Positions 4,022-49,474 of a stretch of DNA of 50,096 nucleotides are shown one piece after another (position 1 is the first letter of the stretch; each line of letters opens with the position of its first letter). The notes below the pieces were generated by a model that saw only the letters and a list, made by a program, of their open reading frames with translations, had not been told where the DNA came from and searched no databases. Source of the DNA: a virus; the IMG/VR virus record IMGVR_UViG_3300042115_000030, positions 1 to 50,096 of that record; one strand, 5' to 3'. The position numbers and the translations under genes were made by a program.

Positions 4022-5074
4022 TTAAGATGATTCAGTGTACGGGGTGGCCGTGGTTGCGGCAAGTATGGCGGCTTTCCTCGCGGCTCGACGTTCTGCTAAT
4101 CGCTGCTCACGGGCTTCCGGATCTTCCAGCAAACGCTTCTCTCGCTTCTTAGCGTTACGCCTATCACGCATCATAGCTAAATGTTCTGGAGTATGCGTTC
4201 TGTCGTACAGGGCTTGCTGGCGTGCTGCCATCTTGGCGCGGAATTCAGGATCTTCCCAATTTGCTTTCGTCTTCGCGGACTGATTGGCTAAATATTCTGG
4301 ATCGTTTTGGATACGAGCCATCTTCGCCGCCCGTTTGGCTTTTGCTTCAGGGCTGTGCGCCGCTGTCTGCATAGCCTCCTGTCTGTCGGGATCAAGTAAC
4401 GCGAGGCGTACTTTCTCTTTTTCCTGAGGATCGGCCCAACGTTTCGCTAAGCCCTCCTTACGCCGCGAGACAAAGTGCTCCGAGAATCGCAAGGTATCCA
4501 AGGCGCTGCCGGGGTAGTGCTTTTTCATCTTCTCCGAACGCTTTTTAAGCACTTCTGGCCTACTGGCGATCTCCTTTGCTGCTGCTACGCGCTTTTCGTA
4601 ATGTCCTGGTTTCAAGCGTGCCTGTGCCATCGCCGCGAGCCTGGAAGCCCTGATTTCGGGATTTCTCCATGGGCGTGCAAAGCTATCTTTTGTCCTCTCT
4701 TTGTATTCGGCGCTGGCTTTCGTAATTAGCGCTTTACGAACTCGTTCTTCTACAGCCTCAGGACTCATATCGAACGTACCTTCGCCGCCTTCTCCTACGT
4801 TGGTAAGGTTAAAACCTAATTCTTTGAAGAAGGAGATCATATGAATTTCGTGGGCTTTCCAATCCTCGCCCTCTGGCACCTGGTAAAGCACATCCATGCT
4901 AGGCAAGGTATCTGCTCGTAGAAGGCTTCTTATCCAGTTTGCGCAGTGATGTTTAGCGGCGCGGCTACGCGCAGCACTTATGTGCTGATTCAATCTTTTT
5001 TGAGGGGAATTGGTTTTTCCGATGTAACGAATTTCGCCTTTAGGGCAAAGCAGAGCGTAGATGTAATTCGGCAT
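4022..5074 (-). CDS. GIY-YIG homing endonuclease
   Basis: 350 residues. The N-terminus IYALLCPKGEIRYIGKT is a GIY-YIG catalytic core (IYAL...RYIGKT, with spacing and the downstream Arg/His as in the family), followed by the helix RLNQHISAARS and the conserved HEIHMISFF glutamate region. Residues about 105-350 are highly basic with repeated short segments of the NUMOD3-like type (EDPEFRAKMAARQQAL, NDPEYLANQSAKTKANW), expected to bind DNA. It separates the capsid gene from the small head gene. A structured non-coding segment lies just upstream. A selfish mobile gene; no effect on virion function is expected. Confidence 0.85.
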   Translation of the reverse strand: MPNYIYALLCPKGEIRYIGKTNSPQKRLNQHISAARSRAAKHHCANWIRSLLRADTLPSMDVLYQVPEGEDWKAHEIHMISFFKELGFNLTNVGEGGEGTFDMSPEAVEERVRKALITKASAEYKERTKDSFARPWRNPEIRASRLAAMAQARLKPGHYEKRVAAAKEIASRPEVLKKRSEKMKKHYPGSALDTLRFSEHFVSRRKEGLAKRWADPQEKEKVRLALLDPDRQEAMQTAAHSPEAKAKRAAKMARIQNDPEYLANQSAKTKANWEDPEFRAKMAARQQALYDRTHTPEHLAMMRDRRNAKKREKRLLEDPEAREQRLAERRAARKAAILAATTATPYTESS

Positions 5075-24645: not shown

Positions 24646-25073
24646 ATTATTATATCCATACGCCCCCAGCAAGTTGGGTCGGCTGGGAATACTCGATACA
24701 AGGTTGCAGCGTAATCGACAAGCAGGTAGAGAATTACGAAACCATGGGTACGCCTGAAGTTCACGCCGTGCGGATCGTGCTAGACGGCGAAGAGTTCAAA
24801 TTCAGGACTATGGCGGATTTTAAGAATGCGCTTTCGCGGGATGAGCATCCGACGATTAAAGCACGCAGCATTGGCGCCGACCTACACTGGCCGGCCGGTA
24901 ATATTTTGCCGAGGGGCCGCGGCAAGCTGACCTATCACAAGGCACTGGGATCTCCAGTAGTGTTGCCGGAGCGTGACAGTGCGCAAGATCCGGATGCTAG
25001 GAATCTTGACGAATCATCCTACGCAGAAGGCTGGAACGCCTGCCTCGACAAGGTCAAGGAGCTGAATCCATGA
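24642..25073 (+). CDS. Hypothetical protein
   Basis: 143 residues from the ATG at 24642, overlapping the RMF-like stop. MNYYIHTPPASWVGWEYSIQ, later GEEFKFRTMADFKNALSRDE, and a C-terminal helix SSYAEGWNACLDKVKEL that echoes the W..GW helix of the RMF-like protein. No known domain. Confidence 0.6.
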   Translation: MNYYIHTPPASWVGWEYSIQGCSVIDKQVENYETMGTPEVHAVRIVLDGEEFKFRTMADFKNALSRDEHPTIKARSIGADLHWPAGNILPRGRGKLTYHKALGSPVVLPERDSAQDPDARNLDESSYAEGWNACLDKVKELNP

Positions 25074-25363
25074 ATATCGACACAGACCTGGCTATCGACA
25101 TGCGCAAGCAGGGCATGACGTGGAAGACCCTGGCCGCTGAATTCCACACGACCGTCTACCTGCTGCGCAAAGAGCTTACCGCCGCCGGCAAGAAGCACTG
25201 GAAGCGTTATACCGACGGCGGACGCTACGCGCCGAAGCTTTTAACGCCGCACCAACTGCAGCGCATGAAACGCCTGAAAGCGGCCGGCGCAACGTGGAAA
25301 GAACTGGGCAAGCTGATGGGTATAGATCCGACCAGGTTAGAGCGATATGTCAATCACCACTAG
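25070..25363 (+). CDS. Helix-turn-helix protein
   Basis: 97 residues with two similar segments, MRKQGMTWKTLAAEFHTTVY and LKAAGATWKELGKLMGIDPT. Both fit an x-x-G-x-TWKxLAxxx HTH (resolvase/homeodomain type). It may bind DNA with two HTHs. The 16-bp overlap with the next gene, also HTH-like, suggests a pair of small regulators just before the polymerase. Confidence 0.65.
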   Translation: MNIDTDLAIDMRKQGMTWKTLAAEFHTTVYLLRKELTAAGKKHWKRYTDGGRYAPKLLTPHQLQRMKRLKAAGATWKELGKLMGIDPTRLERYVNHH

Positions 25364-25505
25364 CGGCCGCCCGGCGATCCCCCTGGCCGACCTAGCCTTC
25401 GCCTACGAGCTACGCGGCCAAGGGCTATCGTGGAAGGCCATAACGCGCCACTTGCCCTGGGAACGAACCGCGCTGATCAAGGGCATCGCCCGGCGCATGA
25501 ATTAA
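25347..25505 (+). CDS. Small helix-turn-helix protein
   Basis: 52 residues, LADLAFAYELRGQGLSWKAI and TRHLPWERTALIKGIARRM: the same RxxGLSWKxIxR HTH pattern as the upstream protein. Probably arose by duplication of that motif. Ends 9 bp before the polymerase N-terminal gene. A regulatory role is inferred. Confidence 0.55.
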   Translation: MSITTSGRPAIPLADLAFAYELRGQGLSWKAITRHLPWERTALIKGIARRMN

Positions 25506-25514
25506 GGGAACATG

Positions 25515-26618
25515 ATGGACCTATCTAAATGCATTTTCCTCGACACAGAAACCTTCTGCGAAACGCCGATCAATAACGGGACGCACCGTTATGCAGAAGG
25601 CGCCGAGATCATCATGTGGCAGTGGGTGGTCGGCGATGGGGAAGTAATCATTCGCGACGGGGATGAAGATATCAGCGACTTGCTCGCTTTGCTTGAGGAT
25701 GAAAGTTATGAAGTGGTTATCCACAATTCGGCGTTTGATCGGAATGTCATCCGACACGCCACCGGAATCATTATCCCTGTCGAGCGAGTCTTCGACACCA
25801 TGGTCTGCGCGATGGCCCACTCACTCCCCGGGAGCCTTTCTACTGTTGGAACCATCCTTGGCGTTGCCCAAGACAAAGCGAAGGATAAAGAGGGCAGAAC
25901 GTGGATCTCCCTTTTCTGTAAGCCACAGCCGAAGGGGCGCAAGATTCGTCGTGCGACGAAGGTTACTCATCCGATAGAGTGGCAACGCTTCCGCGACTAC
26001 GGCGGCCTTGACATCGAGGCGATGCGCGAGATCTACAAGAAGCTTCCCCGCTGGAACTACCGTGGCGCCGAGCGTGAGCTGTGGATGCTCGACCAGAAGA
26101 TCAACGAGCGCGGCGTGCTAATGGATCTAGACTTGGCGCACGCTGCTATTCGCGCTTCAGATCGAGCGCAGAAGCTGTTAGGCGCTCGAACGCAGAAGCT
26201 GACCGGCTACGTAGACGATGAGGGTGAACTGACCGGCCAGGGTGTTGCCAGTGCCAACCAGCGCGACAAGATGCTGGAACACATCCTGGAGGCTTACGGC
26301 GTAGGGCTTCCCGATCTGCAGATTAGCACCTTAGAGCGCCGCATTGACGATCCAGATTTACCGGTCGAGTTGCGCGAACTACTGGCCGTACGGCTGCAGG
26401 CTTCCAAAACCAGTGTTTCCAAGTACAAACGCGTTCTGAACGGTGTTAGTGCCGACGGCAGGCTGCGGGGGCTTCTTGCGTTCTGTGGTGCGCTGCGCAC
26501 TGGCCGGTGGGCGGGTCGCTTGATTCAACCGCAGAACCTTAGCAGGGGCACGCTTACGCCGGAAGGTGTCGAGCACGCCATTGAAGAGCTTTTGAACGAC
26601 GCGGAGGACTTACTGTGA
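25515..26618 (+). CDS. DNA polymerase family A, N-terminal fragment (3'-5' exonuclease and thumb)
   Basis: 367 residues (ATG at 25515 fits the AAGGGA ribosome binding site better than the one at 25512). Exo I CIFLDTETF, Exo II VVIHNSAFDRNVI and Exo III RDYGGLDIEAMREI are all present, so proofreading should be active. The thumb follows, then GALRTGRWAGRLIQPQNL, the segment that precedes motif A in this phage polymerase group. It stops at AEDLL, before motif A. The remaining half is encoded at 27858-28853. The stop overlaps the GTG of the methyltransferase-like gene (GTGA). Confidence 0.9.
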   Translation: MDLSKCIFLDTETFCETPINNGTHRYAEGAEIIMWQWVVGDGEVIIRDGDEDISDLLALLEDESYEVVIHNSAFDRNVIRHATGIIIPVERVFDTMVCAMAHSLPGSLSTVGTILGVAQDKAKDKEGRTWISLFCKPQPKGRKIRRATKVTHPIEWQRFRDYGGLDIEAMREIYKKLPRWNYRGAERELWMLDQKINERGVLMDLDLAHAAIRASDRAQKLLGARTQKLTGYVDDEGELTGQGVASANQRDKMLEHILEAYGVGLPDLQISTLERRIDDPDLPVELRELLAVRLQASKTSVSKYKRVLNGVSADGRLRGLLAFCGALRTGRWAGRLIQPQNLSRGTLTPEGVEHAIEELLNDAEDLL

Positions 26619-27328
26619 AAGCTATTTTTCTTTACGACTATACCGGTCTTATGGCGCGGCCTTGGCTTGACGCAGGATATGAATGTTGGCTGTTTGATGG
26701 GCAGCACCCGGGTGGCATTACGCGCGAAGGAAATCTGGTAAGGGTCGGAATGTGGTTCCATCACGACCAGGTTGAAGCGCAGGCGGCCGAGATCGCCGCG
26801 ATGGTAGGGCCTGAAGTCGTGTTCGTGTTCGGCTTTCCGGAATGCACCCACCTGACCGTGGCCGGCGCCCGCCACTTCGAGGCCAAGGCATCCGCCAATC
26901 CTGAATTCCAGAACGAGGCGGTCAACTTGGCCAAGCTGATCCCGGCGGTAGCGCAAGCCGCTAGATGCCCGGTGTGGGCATTAGAGAACCCCGTGGGCGT
27001 CATGTCCTCGATCTGGCGTAAACCTGATTTCATGTTCAACCCGTGCGACTTCGGCGGCTATCTTCCGGAGGACGATCTGCACCCGGTTTATCCGGATGTT
27101 TACCCCGGCCGCGATGCCTACAACAAAGGCACCTGCATTTGGCACGGCGAAGAATTTCGCGAGCCCTTGCGCCGGCTGATTCAACCCTTGCACAAAGCAA
27201 ATCCCGGATGGGCGAAGTGCGGAGGGAAATCAACGCGCACCAAAAACATCCGCAGCGCCACGCCACGAGGCTTCGCCCAAGCCGTCTTCGAGGCGAACGG
27301 GCCGCATTTGAGGGACTTACTTTGAAAG
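26606..27328 (+). repeat. 16-bp direct repeats flanking the methyltransferase-like gene
   Basis: GGACTTACTGTGAAAG at 26606-26621 and GGACTTACTTTGAAAG at 27313-27328 differ at one base. Both encode DLL followed by a stop overlapping the next start: GTG at 26615 and TTG at 27322. They bracket the methyltransferase-like gene within the split polymerase locus and look like an insertion or recombination footprint. Confidence 0.8.
26615..27325 (+). CDS. DNA cytosine methyltransferase-like protein
   Basis: 236 residues, GTG start. PEVVFVFGFPECTHLTVAGA carries a Cys in the place of the catalytic PPC motif of C5-methyltransferases. CPVWALENPVGVMSSIWRKP matches their ENV motif. The C-terminal KNIRSATPRGFAQAVFEAN is shared with a phage group often annotated as DNA methylase. 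The classical N-terminal SAM motif (FxGxG) is weak or absent: the start is MKAIFLYDYTGLMARPWLDA. It may modify phage DNA against restriction. It sits between the halves of the polymerase and is flanked by short direct repeats. Confidence 0.65.
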   Translation: MKAIFLYDYTGLMARPWLDAGYECWLFDGQHPGGITREGNLVRVGMWFHHDQVEAQAAEIAAMVGPEVVFVFGFPECTHLTVAGARHFEAKASANPEFQNEAVNLAKLIPAVAQAARCPVWALENPVGVMSSIWRKPDFMFNPCDFGGYLPEDDLHPVYPDVYPGRDAYNKGTCIWHGEEFREPLRRLIQPLHKANPGWAKCGGKSTRTKNIRSATPRGFAQAVFEANGPHLRDLL

Positions 27329-27861
27329 ATACTATCAGCCATGAAAAGCTGCTTGAGCTTTTCGACTATGACGCCGAGACGGGGGAACTTGTCCGGCGTT
27401 GCAACGTTCGCGGTTTAGGCCCAAATCGTATAGGCGGCCGCCCAAGGTTTGAAGGCCCGAACGGCTACGCTGCTATCGGGGCGGATTCCCTTAAATACCT
27501 CTATCACCGTTTGGTTTGGTTCTGGCACCACAACGAATGGCCGGAAGTAATCGACCACGTTGACGGCGATAAACAAAACAACCGCATCGAGAACCTGCGC
27601 GCCTGTACCCAGTCGCAAAACCTTTGCAACGCGCAGATTCCAAGCGACAACAAATCGGGCTTCAAAGGCGTTAGCTGGAGTTCTTCGGCCAATAAGTGGC
27701 GGGCGCGTTGCGGGCTGCACAAAGTTCAGCACAACTTAGGCGTATTCGACACGAGAGAGGAGGCGGCCGAAGCAGTTCGAGCTTTCCGCTCCGGCTTGCA
27801 TGGCGCGTACACAAACCACGGAATCCACTTGAAGGATCTACGACAGGAGCTAGTCGGATGA
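27322..27861 (+). CDS. HNH homing endonuclease with AP2-like domain
   Basis: 179 residues from a TTG overlapping the previous stop (TTGA). FDYDAETGELVRRCNVRG is an NUMOD-like start. LYHRLVWFWHHNEWPEVIDH then VDGDKQNNRIENLRACTQ is the HNH core (H...DH..GD..NN...NLR). GFKGVSWSSSANKWRARCGL with LGVFDTREEAAEAVRAF is the AP2-like DNA-binding end. It probably mobilised into the polymerase gene. Its last codons overlap the ATG of the polymerase C-terminal fragment. Confidence 0.88.
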   Translation: MKDTISHEKLLELFDYDAETGELVRRCNVRGLGPNRIGGRPRFEGPNGYAAIGADSLKYLYHRLVWFWHHNEWPEVIDHVDGDKQNNRIENLRACTQSQNLCNAQIPSDNKSGFKGVSWSSSANKWRARCGLHKVQHNLGVFDTREEAAEAVRAFRSGLHGAYTNHGIHLKDLRQELVG

Positions 27862-28853
27862 GCGCTACCGTAATGGAAAAATGCTCCAGCGCCGTGCGCG
27901 GGGTGTTCATAGCGCCGAAGGGCAAAAAGTTTGTGATTGCCGACCTGGCCGGTATCGAGAACCGCGTATTGGCATGGCTGGCCGGTGAAGCCTGGAAGCT
28001 TGAAGCCTTCCTTGACTTCGACCTACGCGACGGCCACGACATGTACAAACTGGCCTACGCGAAGGCCTTCGGTATCGACCCTGCCGACGTAGGCAAGCAC
28101 GAACGAAGCATAGGCAAGGTTTTGGAACTCATGCTGGGCTATGCCGGCGGTGTAGGGGCGTACATCACAGGAGCGTTAACCTACCGTATCGACCTGGAGG
28201 ACATGGCCGAGAAGGCATGGGACGCAATCCCGGACGCTACCCGGCTAGAAGCGGCTGACTTCCTTGAATGGCAGCTCGGCCAGGGGCGTACGCAACACGG
28301 CTTGACGGATCGCGCTTTCATCGTCTGCGAGAGCTTCAAGCGCCTGTGGAGGGGTTCCAATCCGGCGATTAGCAGTTGGTGGAAAGAGCTTGAGGAAGTA
28401 GTCCGCCGCGCTATAAACAGTCCCGGCCAAACGCTGACCTGCCGTATGCACAAGATACGCCGTGACGGCGCGTGGCTCCGCATCATGCTGCCTTCCGGCC
28501 GGTATCTCTGCTACCCGTCACCGCGCGTCGAGGACGACGGAAAAATCACCTTTATGGGCGTGAACCAGTACACCCGAAAGTGGGAGCGCCTTAACACATT
28601 TGGGGGCAAAATTTGTGAAAATATTTGCCAGGCAGTCGCCCGCGATGTCCTAGCGTCTTCCATGCAGCCGATTGAATCCGCCGGTTACGAAATCGTTCTG
28701 ACCGTCCACGATGAGATCATCAGCGAAGCGCCGGACACCGACGACTACACGCACGAACACCTGGCCGAACTGATGTCCGCCGGTTGCGAATGGACAGAAG
28801 GCTTACCGCTCGCCGCCGCCGGCTTCGAAGCGTATCGCTACCGGAAAGGTTGA
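27858..28853 (+). CDS. DNA polymerase family A, C-terminal fragment (palm and fingers)
   Basis: 331 residues. Starts MSATVMEKCSSAVRGVFIAP, then motif A VIADLAGIENRVLAWLAGE, motif B RSIGKVLELMLGYAGG and motif C VLTVHDEIISE. The catalytic Asp and Asp-Glu are intact, so the polymerase centre should be functional. An intact homologue would run from LIQPQNL straight to this start, so the two fragments add up to about 700 residues, the normal size. They probably associate as a split enzyme. ATGA overlap with the HNH gene gives this half its own initiation site. Confidence 0.9.
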   Translation: MSATVMEKCSSAVRGVFIAPKGKKFVIADLAGIENRVLAWLAGEAWKLEAFLDFDLRDGHDMYKLAYAKAFGIDPADVGKHERSIGKVLELMLGYAGGVGAYITGALTYRIDLEDMAEKAWDAIPDATRLEAADFLEWQLGQGRTQHGLTDRAFIVCESFKRLWRGSNPAISSWWKELEEVVRRAINSPGQTLTCRMHKIRRDGAWLRIMLPSGRYLCYPSPRVEDDGKITFMGVNQYTRKWERLNTFGGKICENICQAVARDVLASSMQPIESAGYEIVLTVHDEIISEAPDTDDYTHEHLAELMSAGCEWTEGLPLAAAGFEAYRYRKG

Positions 28854-28862
28854 CGGCGAGTT

Positions 28863-28903
28863 CTATCTAGGAATACTATCTAGATTCTACGGTTTCTAGA
28901 TAG
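28863..28903. repeat. Inverted and direct CTATCTAG repeats after the polymerase gene
   Basis: CTATCTAGA (28876-28884) and TCTAGATAG (28895-28903) are perfect 9-bp inverted arms, and a third CTATCTAG lies at 28863-28870. They occupy the 60-bp gap between the polymerase stop and the next small gene. The segment is A/T-rich compared with its surroundings. An operator or a transcript-processing hairpin is possible. There is no T-run for termination. Confidence 0.6.
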
Positions 28904-28913
28904 GTTAAATGTG

Positions 28914-29063
28914 ATGCGCGAACAAGTATATTTCGGTCGGCTTTGCCCGAAACACCCTGAGCTAAAGGGCGAACGCTGGATCAAGTCCTACCGCTGCGTT
29001 GAATGCCTGCGGATTTACCAGAAGTCTTACCGCGATGCGAAAAAGGAGAAGGGCAATGCTTGA
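28914..29063 (+). CDS. Small zinc-finger-like protein
   Basis: 49 residues, YFGRLCPKHPELKGERW, YRCVECLRIYQKSYRD and a basic end. Cys-x-x-His/Cys-x-x-Cys as in the small finger modules often found with HNH nucleases. Its 3' end forms the AAAGGAGAAGG ribosome binding site and overlaps the next start. Function unknown. Confidence 0.55.
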   Translation: MREQVYFGRLCPKHPELKGERWIKSYRCVECLRIYQKSYRDAKKEKGNA

Positions 29064-29280
29064 CGCCAAAGATCTCACGTTCACACGGAACGCACACTAC
29101 AACGGCGGTAAAGAGTGGTTCGGCCACGGGTATCAGTGCCTTCAGGATACTCGGATCACCATGATTCGCCGCTACTACAGGAAAACACGATCGCACGAAG
29201 ATACTTGGCGCTTCTGTGGGAAGGACATGCTGGGTTTAGCAGCCTGCGTTGAAGCTGCGAACAGGAGCGAGAAGCCATGA
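29056..29280 (+). CDS. Small hypothetical protein
   Basis: 74 residues, MLDAKDLTFTRNAHYNGGKE, RITMIRRYYRKTRSHEDTWR. Basic, aromatic, with cysteines near the end (AACVEA). No family recognised. Overlaps the HNH gene by 4 bp. Confidence 0.5.
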   Translation: MLDAKDLTFTRNAHYNGGKEWFGHGYQCLQDTRITMIRRYYRKTRSHEDTWRFCGKDMLGLAACVEAANRSEKP

Positions 29281-29813
29281 CTCCGAACTTGAAGGGCTTT
29301 ACGCGCGAGTATTTGGCGTCCTTGTTTTCTTACGATCCCGAAACCGGGCGGATTACTCGCTTAGTGACGCGAGGATATCAGGCGCTAGCCGGGGACGTAA
29401 TTGACTGTCTGCACAGCGCGGGGTATTTCCACCTCTCGCTAGACGGTAAACGTCTGTTAGCGCATCGTTTGGCCTACTTCCTGCATACAGGGCAAACGCC
29501 ACAAGAAGTTGATCATCACGACGGCGATAAACAGAACAATAAGTTCAGCAACCTTCGCCCTGCGACCAGTTCGCTGAATAAATACAACGTCCCTCGTAAG
29601 CGCACGAACCTCTCAGGTTTCAAAGGCGTCGGCTATGACCGTGCGCGGGGCAAATTCAGAGCGCAGCTACAGTTCGCTGGCAGGAACATAAACCTTGGCC
29701 GTTTCGATACCGCCGAAGACGCAGCTAGAGCCTACGACAAAGCGGCAGTAGAGGCTGTAGGTGAATTCGCTTTGACTAACGCAAAAATGGGTTTGCTTAA
29801 GGAGTGCGCGTGA
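29277..29813 (+). CDS. HNH homing endonuclease with AP2-like domain
   Basis: 178 residues. FSYDPETGRITRLVTRG, HRLAYFLHTGQTPQEVDHHD with GDKQNNKFSNLRPATSSLNK (HNH), and SGFKGVGYDRARGKFRAQLQ, LGRFDTAEDAARAYDKAAVE (AP2-like). A close relative of the HNH genes at 27322 and 48962. It sits between small genes and the VRR-NUC gene, overlapping by 1 bp at its 3' end. Confidence 0.88.
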   Translation: MTPNLKGFTREYLASLFSYDPETGRITRLVTRGYQALAGDVIDCLHSAGYFHLSLDGKRLLAHRLAYFLHTGQTPQEVDHHDGDKQNNKFSNLRPATSSLNKYNVPRKRTNLSGFKGVGYDRARGKFRAQLQFAGRNINLGRFDTAEDAARAYDKAAVEAVGEFALTNAKMGLLKECA

Positions 29814-30403: not shown

Positions 30404-31798
30404 ATGGCAATTGACTTCATCCCGCGCCGCTATCAGGAACTGATCGGCGGCTTCATCGTCGGCAATAAGCGTTGCGCTGTCTGGTCTAGCCCGGGTACCG
30501 GAAAGACCGGTGCAACGCTATCGGCGCTCGAAGACCTAACCTTCGTCGAAGACGTGTACCCATGCCTAATAGTGGCACCTCTCAGGGTCGCGCGTACCAC
30601 ATGGCCGAACGAGGTGCGCAAGTGGAACCACCTCAAGCACCTGCGCGTCGTTGTCGTCACTGGCGCGTTAAAGGAGCGGCGCGCAGCGTTACGCATTCCA
30701 GCGGACATCTACACGACAAACTTCGAGCAATTACCGTGGTTGGTCGAGGAGTTGGGCGACCGCTGGCCCTTCAAGACCGTCGTAGTCGATGAGGCGACCA
30801 AGTTGAAGGGCTTTCGCTTACGGCAGGGCACGCAGCGCGCCAAGGCACTTGCACGGGTCGCGCACACCAAGATCAAGCGGATCATCCTCTTGACCGGTAC
30901 GCCCAGCCCTAACGGCTTACAGGATCTTTGGGGGCAGATGTGGTTCGTCGATAAGGGCGATCGCCTCGGCCGAACCTTCGATGCTTTCAAGCAGCGCTGG
31001 TTTCACGCTTCGCACACCGGGTTCGGCGTAGAGGCGAACGATAACGCCCAGGTGCAGATGCAGGAAGCTTTGCGCGATGTATGTATCACGATTGATGCCG
31101 CCGACTGGTTCGACCTTGAAGCGCCGATCATCAACAAGATAATGGTCGATCTGCCACCCTCGGCCAAAGTGATGTACAAGCAGATGGAAAAGCAATTCTT
31201 CATGGAGCTGGAAGGCGGACAGCAGATCGAAGCGCTAAACGCTGCGGCCAAGTCGATGAAGCTTTTGCAGATCGCGAACGGCGCAGCCTATTTGGAAGGC
31301 GGGCAAGACTGGGAAAAGATCCACGATGAGAAGCTGGACGCACTGGAGGAGATCATCGAGGAAGCCGCCGGTATGCCGGTATTGACGGCCTACAACTTTC
31401 GCTCAGATCTCGCCCGGCTCAAGAAGCGTTTCCCGGACGGCATAGACCTGGCTGAGAAGGGCGGCCTCGAGAGAGCGCAAGCCGGGGAAGGTCGAGTATG
31501 GTTCGCTCACCCTGCGTCGGTAGGACACGGCGTGGATGGTTTGCAGAACCACACGAATATTATGGCGTTCTTCGGCTACTCGTGGAGCTTGGAGAACTAC
31601 CTGCAGTTCATCGAGCGGATAGGCCCAACGCGCCAATTCCAAGCGGGCTTCAAGCGGCCGGTGTTCATGCACATGATCATGGCAGCCGATACCCTGGACG
31701 AATTGGTCTTGGAACGCCTGCATAGCAAGCGAGAGGTTCAAGACATACTCATGGCCGCGCTAAAAGAACGCGGCTACCTAAAGGATGCCGCAGCATGA
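30404..31798 (+). CDS. SNF2/DEAD-like helicase
   Basis: 464 residues. Walker A VWSSPGTGKTGATLSAL (about 27-43), motif Ia PCLIVAPLRVARTTWPNE, Walker B TVVVDEATKLKG, motif III LTGTPSPNGLQDLWGQ, motif IV-V around MPVLTAYNFRSDLARLKK and VGHGVDGLQNHTN, motif VI QFIERIGPTRQ. All key motifs are present. In phage modules such proteins work with VRR-NUC nuclease and polymerase, perhaps remodelling forks. GGGAG 9 nt upstream of the ATG. Confidence 0.88.
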   Translation: MAIDFIPRRYQELIGGFIVGNKRCAVWSSPGTGKTGATLSALEDLTFVEDVYPCLIVAPLRVARTTWPNEVRKWNHLKHLRVVVVTGALKERRAALRIPADIYTTNFEQLPWLVEELGDRWPFKTVVVDEATKLKGFRLRQGTQRAKALARVAHTKIKRIILLTGTPSPNGLQDLWGQMWFVDKGDRLGRTFDAFKQRWFHASHTGFGVEANDNAQVQMQEALRDVCITIDAADWFDLEAPIINKIMVDLPPSAKVMYKQMEKQFFMELEGGQQIEALNAAAKSMKLLQIANGAAYLEGGQDWEKIHDEKLDALEEIIEEAAGMPVLTAYNFRSDLARLKKRFPDGIDLAEKGGLERAQAGEGRVWFAHPASVGHGVDGLQNHTNIMAFFGYSWSLENYLQFIERIGPTRQFQAGFKRPVFMHMIMAADTLDELVLERLHSKREVQDILMAALKERGYLKDAAA

Positions 31799-32301
31799 AA
31801 TTCAGAGAAAACGATCCCCTGACTTTAGAAGTTCTGAACGATCGCCTGAGGTACGAACCGGATACCGGATTGTTCCGGTGGAACTACGAACGCAGCTACA
31901 GAGCTAAGAAAGACGCTCTAGCCGGGTATACCCGCGAAGATGGATACGCTCGTCTACGAATAAACGGACTTGAGTATTTCGCGCACCGCGTAGCTTGGTT
32001 TGCTACCCACGGCAAGTGGCCGGAAGCTGAGCTAGACCACGTAAACGGTCTAAAGGACGACAACCGACTTTGCAATCTGCGTGAAGCCGATCGGGTCTTT
32101 AACATGCAAAACCAGAAGAGAGCCCACCGCGGTCAGCAGACGGGCCTTCTAGGCGTTTACCCGGTAAACACAGGAGGGTTTACGTCGTTCATCCAAGTGG
32201 ACCGGAAGCGAATCTACCTCGGCTACTTCAAAACCGCCGAAGCGGCGCACGAAACCTACCTAGCGGCTAAACGTGAACTTCATCCAGGTAACACGATATG
32301 A
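31795..32301 (+). CDS. HNH homing endonuclease
   Basis: 168 residues. LRYEPDTGLFRWNYERSYRA (NUMOD-like), HRVAWFATHGKWPEAELDHV with NGLKDDNRLCNLREADRVFN (HNH), and a C-terminal LGVYPVNTGGFTSFIQVDRK, LGYFKTAEAAHETYLAAKR. Same architecture as the other three in this genome, but more diverged. Sits between the helicase and the DUF3310-like gene, overlapping each by 4 bp. Confidence 0.83.
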   Translation: MKFRENDPLTLEVLNDRLRYEPDTGLFRWNYERSYRAKKDALAGYTREDGYARLRINGLEYFAHRVAWFATHGKWPEAELDHVNGLKDDNRLCNLREADRVFNMQNQKRAHRGQQTGLLGVYPVNTGGFTSFIQVDRKRIYLGYFKTAEAAHETYLAAKRELHPGNTI

Positions 32302-48184: not shown

Positions 48185-48965
48185 AATTCGAAATCCTCTT
48201 ATTGCAAGAATGTTGCTTCAATTTACAGAGACAGAAATTGTCTGGCACCGCAAAGGTAATTGTACTGCCGTCCGGGCAGATCTGCTTCGGCGAATTGAAT
48301 CCCCCCTGACCGCCGCAGATGACCCACGCGGGAACCTTGGCCGCGAGCGCTGCCGGGACCAGCCAGCCGATGCCGCCGATCACGGCAGCAGCACCCTTGA
48401 CGAGCGCCAGTAGTTGTTCGATTGGCAGTTCGCCTTTGTGGTAGACCTTATCGGCTGAATAGGCGTGGCCGTCTACCATCCACTCTTGCCCGTCTACCAG
48501 GTCGGCTACGCTGATAACCCGATAGCCTCGGCGCATGGCTTCTGCGGCGGCCCAAGCGATGTACTCAGGATCAGGGTTACGTGTATCGGCGCGCCACTCG
48601 CTGCGCACCGTGGCCGGGCGCACAACGACGTACGGGCTAGTTTCTGGCGAAGGCGGTAGCGGCGGAAGGTCGAACTCGCCCGGCATTACGCCGAAGCTGG
48701 CAATCATCCCGGGGATAATCCCTTCGGCGCCGTAGCGGATCTGCCGAGTCGGTTGACGCCCGGGTGGCATCGTCCATGTTGTGTGGCGCGCGATGTTCTT
48801 CGCCTGGGTGCGCAGATTGGTTTGCGGTCGGATGAAATGGACGTTTGGCAGATCGGCCAGTAGTTCGGGCCACGGGGTATCGACGTAGAGCTGGCCGGGT
48901 AGCTGCTTGATAAAGGCGCGACTGTATATCGAGTCGCCCAAACCGCGCATTCCGTGGATGATCAT
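48132..48965 (-). CDS. Glycosyltransferase family 9-like protein
   Basis: 277 residues from the ATG at 48965, overlapping the HNH gene as ATGA. MIIHGMRGLGDSIYSRAFIK is the G-x-GD start of heptosyltransferase-type (GT9/GT-B) enzymes. PYVVVRPATVRSEWRADTRN and LLALVKGAAAVIGGIGWLVP then PAALAAKVPAWVICGG give the second Rossmann-like domain with the nucleotide-sugar binding loop. The cysteine-rich C-terminus (FCLCKLKQHSC) is unusual. Likely transfers a sugar; whether to virion or host glycan is unknown. Confidence 0.7.
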   Translation of the reverse strand: MIIHGMRGLGDSIYSRAFIKQLPGQLYVDTPWPELLADLPNVHFIRPQTNLRTQAKNIARHTTWTMPPGRQPTRQIRYGAEGIIPGMIASFGVMPGEFDLPPLPPSPETSPYVVVRPATVRSEWRADTRNPDPEYIAWAAAEAMRRGYRVISVADLVDGQEWMVDGHAYSADKVYHKGELPIEQLLALVKGAAAVIGGIGWLVPAALAAKVPAWVICGGQGGFNSPKQICPDGSTITFAVPDNFCLCKLKQHSCNKRISNYDAKLADWANKALPVVV

Positions 48966-49474
48966 GATTTCGCGAACTCCCCGAAATGCGCCGAGCAAGC
49001 TTCTGAGTAGGCTTTAGCCGCGTCTTCGATGGTTTTAAAATACCCCAGATGAATACTTTTATAAGCAACCATTATTTGCGCTCTCCATCGCCCGCTCGGT
49101 TTGTGCAGATACACACCCTTTACCCCTGAGGTAGATTTAAGCGTGGGCCCTCGATTGGCCATGTTTTGGCTCATGTTGCAAGCTCTCAAATTTTCCCAAC
49201 GGTTATTGGCCTTGTCACCGTCCTTATGGTCGATATACGCTGGTATCTCGCCGGTCATTATCAGAAACGCCAGTCTGTGGGCAAAACATCTTCTTTTCCC
49301 GAGATTTATTTCTACATACCCGTTATCGCAAACACTTCCGGCTTGTTTACCGAGAAAGTCAGGACGGTTCCGCTTCATTGACTCTTCAAAGAAATCTATG
49401 CGTGTGAATACGCCCGTCTTTGGGTCGTAGGACAAAGCGGCTGTAACGGATTCTTTAGTAAGTTTTTTCTTCAT
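48962..49474 (-). CDS. HNH homing endonuclease with AP2-like domain
   Basis: 170 residues. LSYDPKTGVFTRIDFFEESM, HRLAFLIMTGEIPAYIDHKD with GDKANNRWENLRACNMSQNM (HNH), GVKGVYLHKPSGRWRAQIMV and LGYFKTIEDAAKAYSEACSA. Close relative of the genes at 27322 and 29277. Sits between the sugar-enzyme gene and the GPSL protein gene, with GGAG before the ATG. Confidence 0.88.
   Translation of the reverse strand: MKKKLTKESVTAALSYDPKTGVFTRIDFFEESMKRNRPDFLGKQAGSVCDNGYVEINLGKRRCFAHRLAFLIMTGEIPAYIDHKDGDKANNRWENLRACNMSQNMANRGPTLKSTSGVKGVYLHKPSGRWRAQIMVAYKSIHLGYFKTIEDAAKAYSEACSAHFGEFAKS

Follow-up and report, generated by a model that had tools for sequence, protein, structure and literature searches.

Can a phage replicative DNA polymerase keep working when its gene lies in two parts with unrelated genes between them, and did those genes make the cut? 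The question is raised by the IMG/VR virus record IMGVR_UViG_3300042115_000030 (positions 1 to 50,096), the whole 50,096-nucleotide stretch being termed here the window. A family A DNA polymerase is encoded on its + strand as two open reading frames (ORFs), polN and polC, parted by a methyltransferase-like gene and an HNH endonuclease gene. With a probability of roughly 0.8, we consider that the window encodes a two-chain polymerase arising from an old inherited cut, and that the junction between the halves, hereafter the seam, serves as a slot for exchangeable genes.

Organization of the polymerase locus

polN (25512–26618, +, 368 amino acids, aa) encodes the N-terminal half of the polymerase, comprising the 3'-5' exonuclease, the thumb and the chain up to a loop preceding motif A; it starts at ATG 25512 or at the adjacent ATG 25515 and stops at TGA 26618. 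polC (27858–28853, +, 331 aa, ATG start) encodes the palm and fingers with motifs A, B and C, the motif A region VIADLAGIENR lying at 27933–27965 (+) and the motif C region LTVHDEI at 28698–28718 (+). Profile searches matched polN to PF01612 (5.7e-7) and to positions 668–989 of the phrog_17 DNA polymerase family (4e-49), and polC to PF00476 (2.4e-12) and to phrog_17 positions 993–1232 (1.5e-54); because the two phrog_17 matches abut, polN and polC are contiguous pieces of one family. Both Pfam matches exceed their cut-offs, and the locus retains the features of a proofreading family A (PolI) enzyme, namely the exonuclease carboxylates, the motif A Asp, the O-helix Arg/Lys and the motif C His-Asp-Glu. 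Residues D11, E13, D76 and D167 of polN and D29, R83, K87, Y95 and H284-D285-E286 of polC are invariant among relatives, and the O-helix position matching Klenow F762, as read from the alignment, is Leu. Judged by its sequence, the locus is thus a split phage DNA polymerase, two ORFs with their own starts that keep every motif between them, and the initial annotation, which had described two cistrons with all catalytic residues intact, is borne out.

The intervening genes encode a methyltransferase-like protein (26615–27325, +, 236 aa, GTG start; phrog_757 'DNA methyltransferase', 7e-75) and an HNH_3 + AP2 endonuclease (27322–27861, +, 179 aa, TTG start; PF13392, 1.4e-13; phrog_99, 3e-62). All four genes are linked in order by 4-base stop/start overlaps, GTGA, TTGA and ATGA, which had been reported correctly along with the gene coordinates, the alternative ATG 25512 preceding the polN start first given at 25515. 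Each overlap coincides with a predicted ribosome site on the + strand: a Shine-Dalgarno site with the overlapping start/stop GTGA at 26603–26618 (GGAGGACTTACTGTGA; anti-Shine-Dalgarno duplex −9.5 kcal/mol), a Shine-Dalgarno-like site with TTGA at 27310–27325 (GAGGGACTTACTTTGA; −6.1 kcal/mol) and a Shine-Dalgarno site with ATGA at 27846–27861 (GGAGCTAGTCGGATGA; −6.6 kcal/mol). Predicted promoters and terminators in 25000–29200 were no more numerous than in shuffled sequences, and none lay on the coding strand inside the polymerase genes. No further family A polymerase, the possible counter-evidence named in the initial annotation, was found in the record, which, as a linear IMG/VR fragment, is possibly incomplete.

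Relatives and inheritance of the split

Viral contigs were scanned with polN and polC and with an alignment of either, which yielded 155 non-redundant loci holding both halves, identified below by L numbers; one of them (L159) has a stop inside polC and is left out of the counts. The uninterrupted gene for which the initial annotation had proposed a search is present as a single ORF in 119 of the 155 loci, among them all the more distant relatives except L191. In 34, including the window, the polymerase is cut at the window's position: the first half ends ...(A/C)EDL(L/V/I)* and the chain restarts at a Met just before the VM(E/D) of homologues. Both this position and an intact homologue had been predicted, and two contigs (L005 and L007) carry the latter as single polymerase ORFs of 688–689 aa reading ...AEDLIGGPTVMDKCSSAIRG... 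The outgroup locus L191 (3420–5487) has a split of independent origin at this position (...AAHLFYE* / MSNVMALAAS), with a ATGAGTAA overlap and without an insert. Since every junction state (HNH gene only, methyltransferase only, empty and fused) recurs in independent contigs, the split is not a product of chance. A bacterial genome collection gave one partial match only, in a Sodalis contig.

The split sequences form one clade in both half-trees, nested among fused polymerases (support 100/100 for polN and 99/96 for polC), and the cut would be an old inherited state of this phage clade. Ratios of nonsynonymous to synonymous substitution rates (dN/dS) of 0.02–0.12 for polN and 0.005–0.17 for polC indicate purifying selection on both halves; those of the passengers are low too, at 0.045–0.067 for the methyltransferase-like gene. 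L005 and L007, fused through a new linker, LIGGPTVMD, fall deep inside the split clade, and approximately unbiased (AU) tests reject their exclusion from it (p = 2.9e-6 for polN and 7e-60 for polC). The split state was therefore reversed, and because the gene could be re-fused, it was not a pseudogene in its split state.

The two half-trees also conflict. The polC data reject the polN-supported groupings of the window with L010 and L088 (AU p = 1.7e-4) and of L003, L004, L013 and L014 (AU p = 8.6e-53), and the polN data reject a ten-row polC clade containing the window (AU p = 0.0054); halves of different ancestry were therefore combined. This claim draws on these three significant tests and not on two others, in which the polN data did not reject the polC-tree clade of the window, L010, L003 and L004 (p = 0.38) and a grouping of L018 with L088 was not rejected (p = 0.16).

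The seam as a proposed exchange slot

Slot-like behaviour of the seam is well supported by comparison across genomes. Ten of the 34 split genomes, scattered over the tree, have a bare stop/start junction (L006, L013, L022, L025, L027, L031, L047, L057, L112 and L236), and the seams of the other 24 are occupied by one of about ten unrelated insert types: DNA methyltransferases in 15 genomes, HNH endonucleases in seven (the window being counted in both) and small ORFs otherwise. The window's HNH gene stands alone in the seam of L003, L004, L009 and L010, and a NUMOD4-HNH gene in that of L012 and L014. N6/N4 methyltransferases of two kinds, both matching PF01555, occupy the seams of L015, L018, L032 and L064 and of L017 and L029, and Dcm-type PF00145 genes those of L026, L088 and L095, the classes of L088, L095, L018, L032, L064 and L029 being assigned by tblastn similarity to Pfam-tested members. 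A short C5-like protein without a Pfam match is encoded in L024, the window's methyltransferase-like gene recurs in L056, L058 and L220 and, behind a DUF7220 ORF, in L060, and small ORFs are found in L008, L082 and L102. Among the genomes examined, only the window holds two larger tenants at once; it shares its HNH gene with L010, L003 and L004 and its methyltransferase-like gene with L056. On the polN and polC trees, seam contents switch at least 23–25 times.

We propose that the seam serves as an exchange slot because it is a neutral site within an operon, flanked by polymerase sequence that would allow homologous recombination; one- or two-gene cassettes, mostly DNA methyltransferases and HNH homing-type endonucleases, would have come and gone repeatedly. 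In most methyltransferase cassettes the end DNA resembles the polN end (10–14 of 16 bases), with few or no equally good internal windows, and such short direct repeats at the cassette ends could let these cassettes be gained or lost. The same repeat was sought around the HNH_3/AP2 insert and rejected, its 8 of 16 matches being equalled by many windows inside the insert. In the Dcm-type cargo (L026, 2840–3998; L088, 5601–6390; L095, 5786–6575), a second long open frame runs over the same DNA and ends YGDLV* at the polC start; that of L026 has no match in Pfam or NCBIfam.

The initial annotation had attributed the split to the methyltransferase-like and HNH genes. A homing insertion of either or both, here or in the ancestor of the clade, would be compatible with a two-chain enzyme today. 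HNH homing-type genes occur in the seam of seven genomes and elsewhere beside replication genes, T4-like nrdA is a documented case of such a split and gene 43 a suspected one (PMC2988022), and the empty seams could be clean losses via short repeats. We nevertheless regard this origin as unlikely: the empty seams are scattered on the tree, L191 was split independently without an insert, and on the deepest split branches the seam contains no more than a 40-aa ORF (L082) or a very short one (L102), or is empty (L047). With ten seams empty and the inserts interchangeable, the passengers need not have caused the split, and the attribution finds no support; they look like later tenants of the seam, an insertion as the very first event being possible.

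The 27322–27861 product has the domain pair of a free-standing HNH homing endonuclease, HNH plus AP2, with PF13392 above its cut-off and AP2 (4.6e-5) below its own. The window is rich in genes for homing-type endonucleases, with one GIY-YIG and three further HNH_3/AP2-type genes at 4022–5074 (−), 29277–29813 (+), 31795–32301 (+) and 48962–49474 (−); the + strand pair begin with 4-bp overlaps, as the HNH gene of the polymerase seam does.

The methyltransferase-like tenant

The METHYLTRANSFERASE-like gene of the seam has a 236-aa product with no sequence match in Pfam, NCBIfam or PDB. Its structural model (predicted local distance difference test, pLDDT, 85.7) has C5 methyltransferases as its top PDB fold matches, all weak (template modelling, TM, scores of 0.38–0.45), the best being M.HaeIII (E = 1.3e-4, TM 0.38). 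Pro-Glu-Cys (PEC) and Glu-Asn-Pro (ENP) motifs are invariant in the family and would be compatible with, though not proof of, a C5-type enzyme; a profile comparison of the protein with its Dcm-type neighbours gave no match. Since the family is widespread in other phages, the gene is not a polymerase accessory by descent. Its likeliest role would be phage DNA modification against restriction, and the window's tenants in general probably serve such modification and their own spread rather than the polymerase.

That the methyltransferase is instead a working component of the polymerase complex, with the task of methylating DNA at the replication fork, seems to us very unlikely. Sequence-unrelated methyltransferase groups do recur in the slot (15 of the 24 occupied seams), and members of the window's family that lie in the slot have a short C-terminal tail in common. 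This tail, GPHLRDLL in the window, is confined to polymerase-linked copies and absent from those of other phages; one methyltransferase-like gene downstream of polC (L008) still has it, as APHLRDLV. When in the seam, however, the tail-coding DNA gives the following gene its ribosome site and overlapping start; serving as the ribosome site of polC, this DNA accounts for the tail. Moreover, ten seams are empty and others hold endonucleases only, and kin of the slot methyltransferases also lie downstream of polC in L006, L008, L013, L017, L031 and L112.

Predicted translation and assembly of the two chains

At the start that overlaps the polN stop, predicted anti-Shine-Dalgarno pairing in split genomes averages −6.5 kcal/mol and reaches −5.5 kcal/mol or lower in 26 of 33, whereas the same position in fused homologues averages −3.2 kcal/mol (9 of 91 at that threshold) and the same-phase background −2.9 kcal/mol (18%); the rows are related, so the computed p-values overstate their independence. 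From one operon, the chains would be translated separately, each start overlapping the prior stop and each Shine-Dalgarno site lying inside the last codons of the upstream gene. polN would then supply the proofreading exonuclease and thumb, and polC the palm active site and fingers.

The position of the cut was examined in a predicted structure of the fused L007 protein, modelled from 70 sequences as a single chain (mean pLDDT 92.8) and Klenow-like by Foldseek. The cut falls in a loop (351–361) between helices 339–350 and 362–373, ahead of the motif A strand (380–387). Alignment to solved polymerases gave ~30 residues between the LQNIP-like and RRIRQAF-like stretches versus ~5 in Klenow, so the cut loop is part of an insertion relative to Klenow. 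Since the cut lies in an interhelical loop immediately ahead of motif A, polN and polC may be expected to assemble non-covalently into a Klenow-like enzyme.

A highly improbable alternative is that a single chain is restored from the halves through splicing of the RNA or the protein, through frameshifting or through ribosome bypassing. Phage polymerase genes often carry group I introns and inteins, four relatives (L060, L064, L112 and L220) have intein-like inserts at other places in polC, and empty seams with an ATGA overlap put the second half in the −1 frame, where a frameshift is formally possible. At the window seam, however, no group I or II intron or other Rfam match was found at E ≤ 1 in 25000–29500, and splicing is unlikely (ALTERNATIVES), the inserts being whole ORFs that leave no gap, linked to their neighbours on either side by stop/start overlaps and provided with ribosome sites. 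Across the clade the inserts come from many unrelated families, none intein-like, and are out of frame with polN, and the 1.2 kb insert in the window means that a frameshift cannot join the halves. An intein or split intein, which would be an in-frame insert with an N-terminal Cys/Ser and a C-terminal His-Asn, was likewise considered at the window seam and rejected, because stop codons part the insert genes from polN and these genes fall into the HNH and phrog_757 families.

The intein-like inserts of the relatives lie at two sites in polC, after ...EN in L060 and L064 (CIAEG...HN) and after ...MELA in L112 and L220 (CLGGD...HN); each is overlapped in another frame by an HNH-like ORF, as annotated for APSE-1 P45/P46.

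A second cut in polC

In seven relatives (L056, L057, L058, L064, L112, L220 and L082) polC is cut again, behind a helix that ends ...MPRIE and ahead of the motif C strand. The final polymerase piece is a 61–65-aa ORF with VHDE(V/I)I (L056, 4918–5115; L064, 5830 on; L082, 4000–4185; L112, 7370–7564; L220, 5145–5339; also in L057 and L058), preceded in all seven by GAGGA at constant spacing (−5.9 kcal/mol). Its dN/dS is 0.014–0.026 among the four closest relatives, rising to as much as 0.34 when subgroups are compared. A −1 frameshift is formally possible at this cut, but the sequence shows no slippery heptamer; if the piece is translated separately, catalytic acidic residues would sit on a chain of ~65 residues.

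A probable working enzyme and its implications

A polymerase broken by insertion and dead, the phage relying on a host or other polymerase, can be dismissed almost outright: although the window record is a fragment, the catalytic residues are all kept across the clade, dN/dS lies well under 1 for polN, for polC and for the third piece found in relatives, the split state is deeply monophyletic, the re-fusion in L005 and L007 requires halves that functioned while split, and recombined halves of different ancestry conflict with decay. The two-chain enzyme predicted in the initial annotation therefore fares better on comparative evidence than a dead or spliced gene.

Several points weigh against this conclusion. 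The relatives in the split clade are all uncultivated contigs, the Shine-Dalgarno and dN/dS comparisons run over rows sharing ancestry, another polymerase may lie outside the linear fragment, and the methyltransferase-like tenant owes its label to the name of a phage family and a weak fold match (TM 0.38).

Somewhat favoured, with less confidence than the two-chain enzyme itself, is the broader view that the clade uses a modular multi-chain polymerase with reversible seams, the first seam being a docking site for swappable DNA-modification cassettes and at least seven relatives having a three-chain form. If so, a replicative family A polymerase tolerates cuts before motif A and before motif C under strong selection, and halves of different ancestry can be reassembled and then fused again. 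The natural series of fused, split, cargo-bearing and three-piece forms would offer material for studying the change from enzyme to complex and a guide for split-polymerase design. It also suggests a route by which phages swap anti-restriction methyltransferases, a cut conserved gene providing homologous arms round a neutral slot.

Comparison with known systems

Split phage polymerases are already known, whereas the open-licence literature searched yielded no account of a reversible methyltransferase slot in a split polymerase, of re-fusion or of a three-piece family A enzyme. The nearest cultured polymerases, those of Bordetella BPP-1, Yersinia YeP5, Acinetobacter 4316 and Burkholderia BcepC6B (52–61% identity), lie in a similar replication module but, unlike that of the window, are each one ORF. 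In BcepC6B (L238, 1814–4993) the intact polymerase gene is directly preceded by one annotated as a DNA methyltransferase. In Hamiltonella phage APSE-1 (P45/P46) a related family A polymerase gene is invaded by an HNH ORF; unlike at the window seam, the frame is continuous and the HNH ORF lies inside it in another frame, as in L060, L064, L112 and L220.

The initial annotation called a family A split unusual, which it is, but the OM43 phages MEP401 and MEP402 (Zobellviridae; OP830906) had already provided a split polymerase of this family that contains an inserted ORF; there the polymerase spans ORF13, ORF14 and ORF15, ORF14 being the unrelated intervening ORF, considered by the authors a possible intron (PMC10580990). 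Their gp15 begins MILNADAKALEW, so the cut likewise falls between the LQN motif and motif A. They differ from the window in belonging to another lineage, in a cut slightly later in the chain, in a small intervening ORF of unknown function and in having no overlapping stop/start.

A split PolB accompanied by a split intein is known from phage MIJ3 (PMC6892783). In Aeromonas phage Aeh1 another essential replication gene, nrdA, is split by a single HNH insertion (mobE), and its two chains give an active enzyme (PMC2988022). The T4-like Aeromonas phages 25 and 44RR also have a two-chain replicative polymerase associated with a homing endonuclease; their 43A and 43B differ from polN and polC in belonging to family B and in being parted by untranslated DNA or a seg gene, and the 43A and 43B chains of phage 25 co-purify and are active (PMC2988022).

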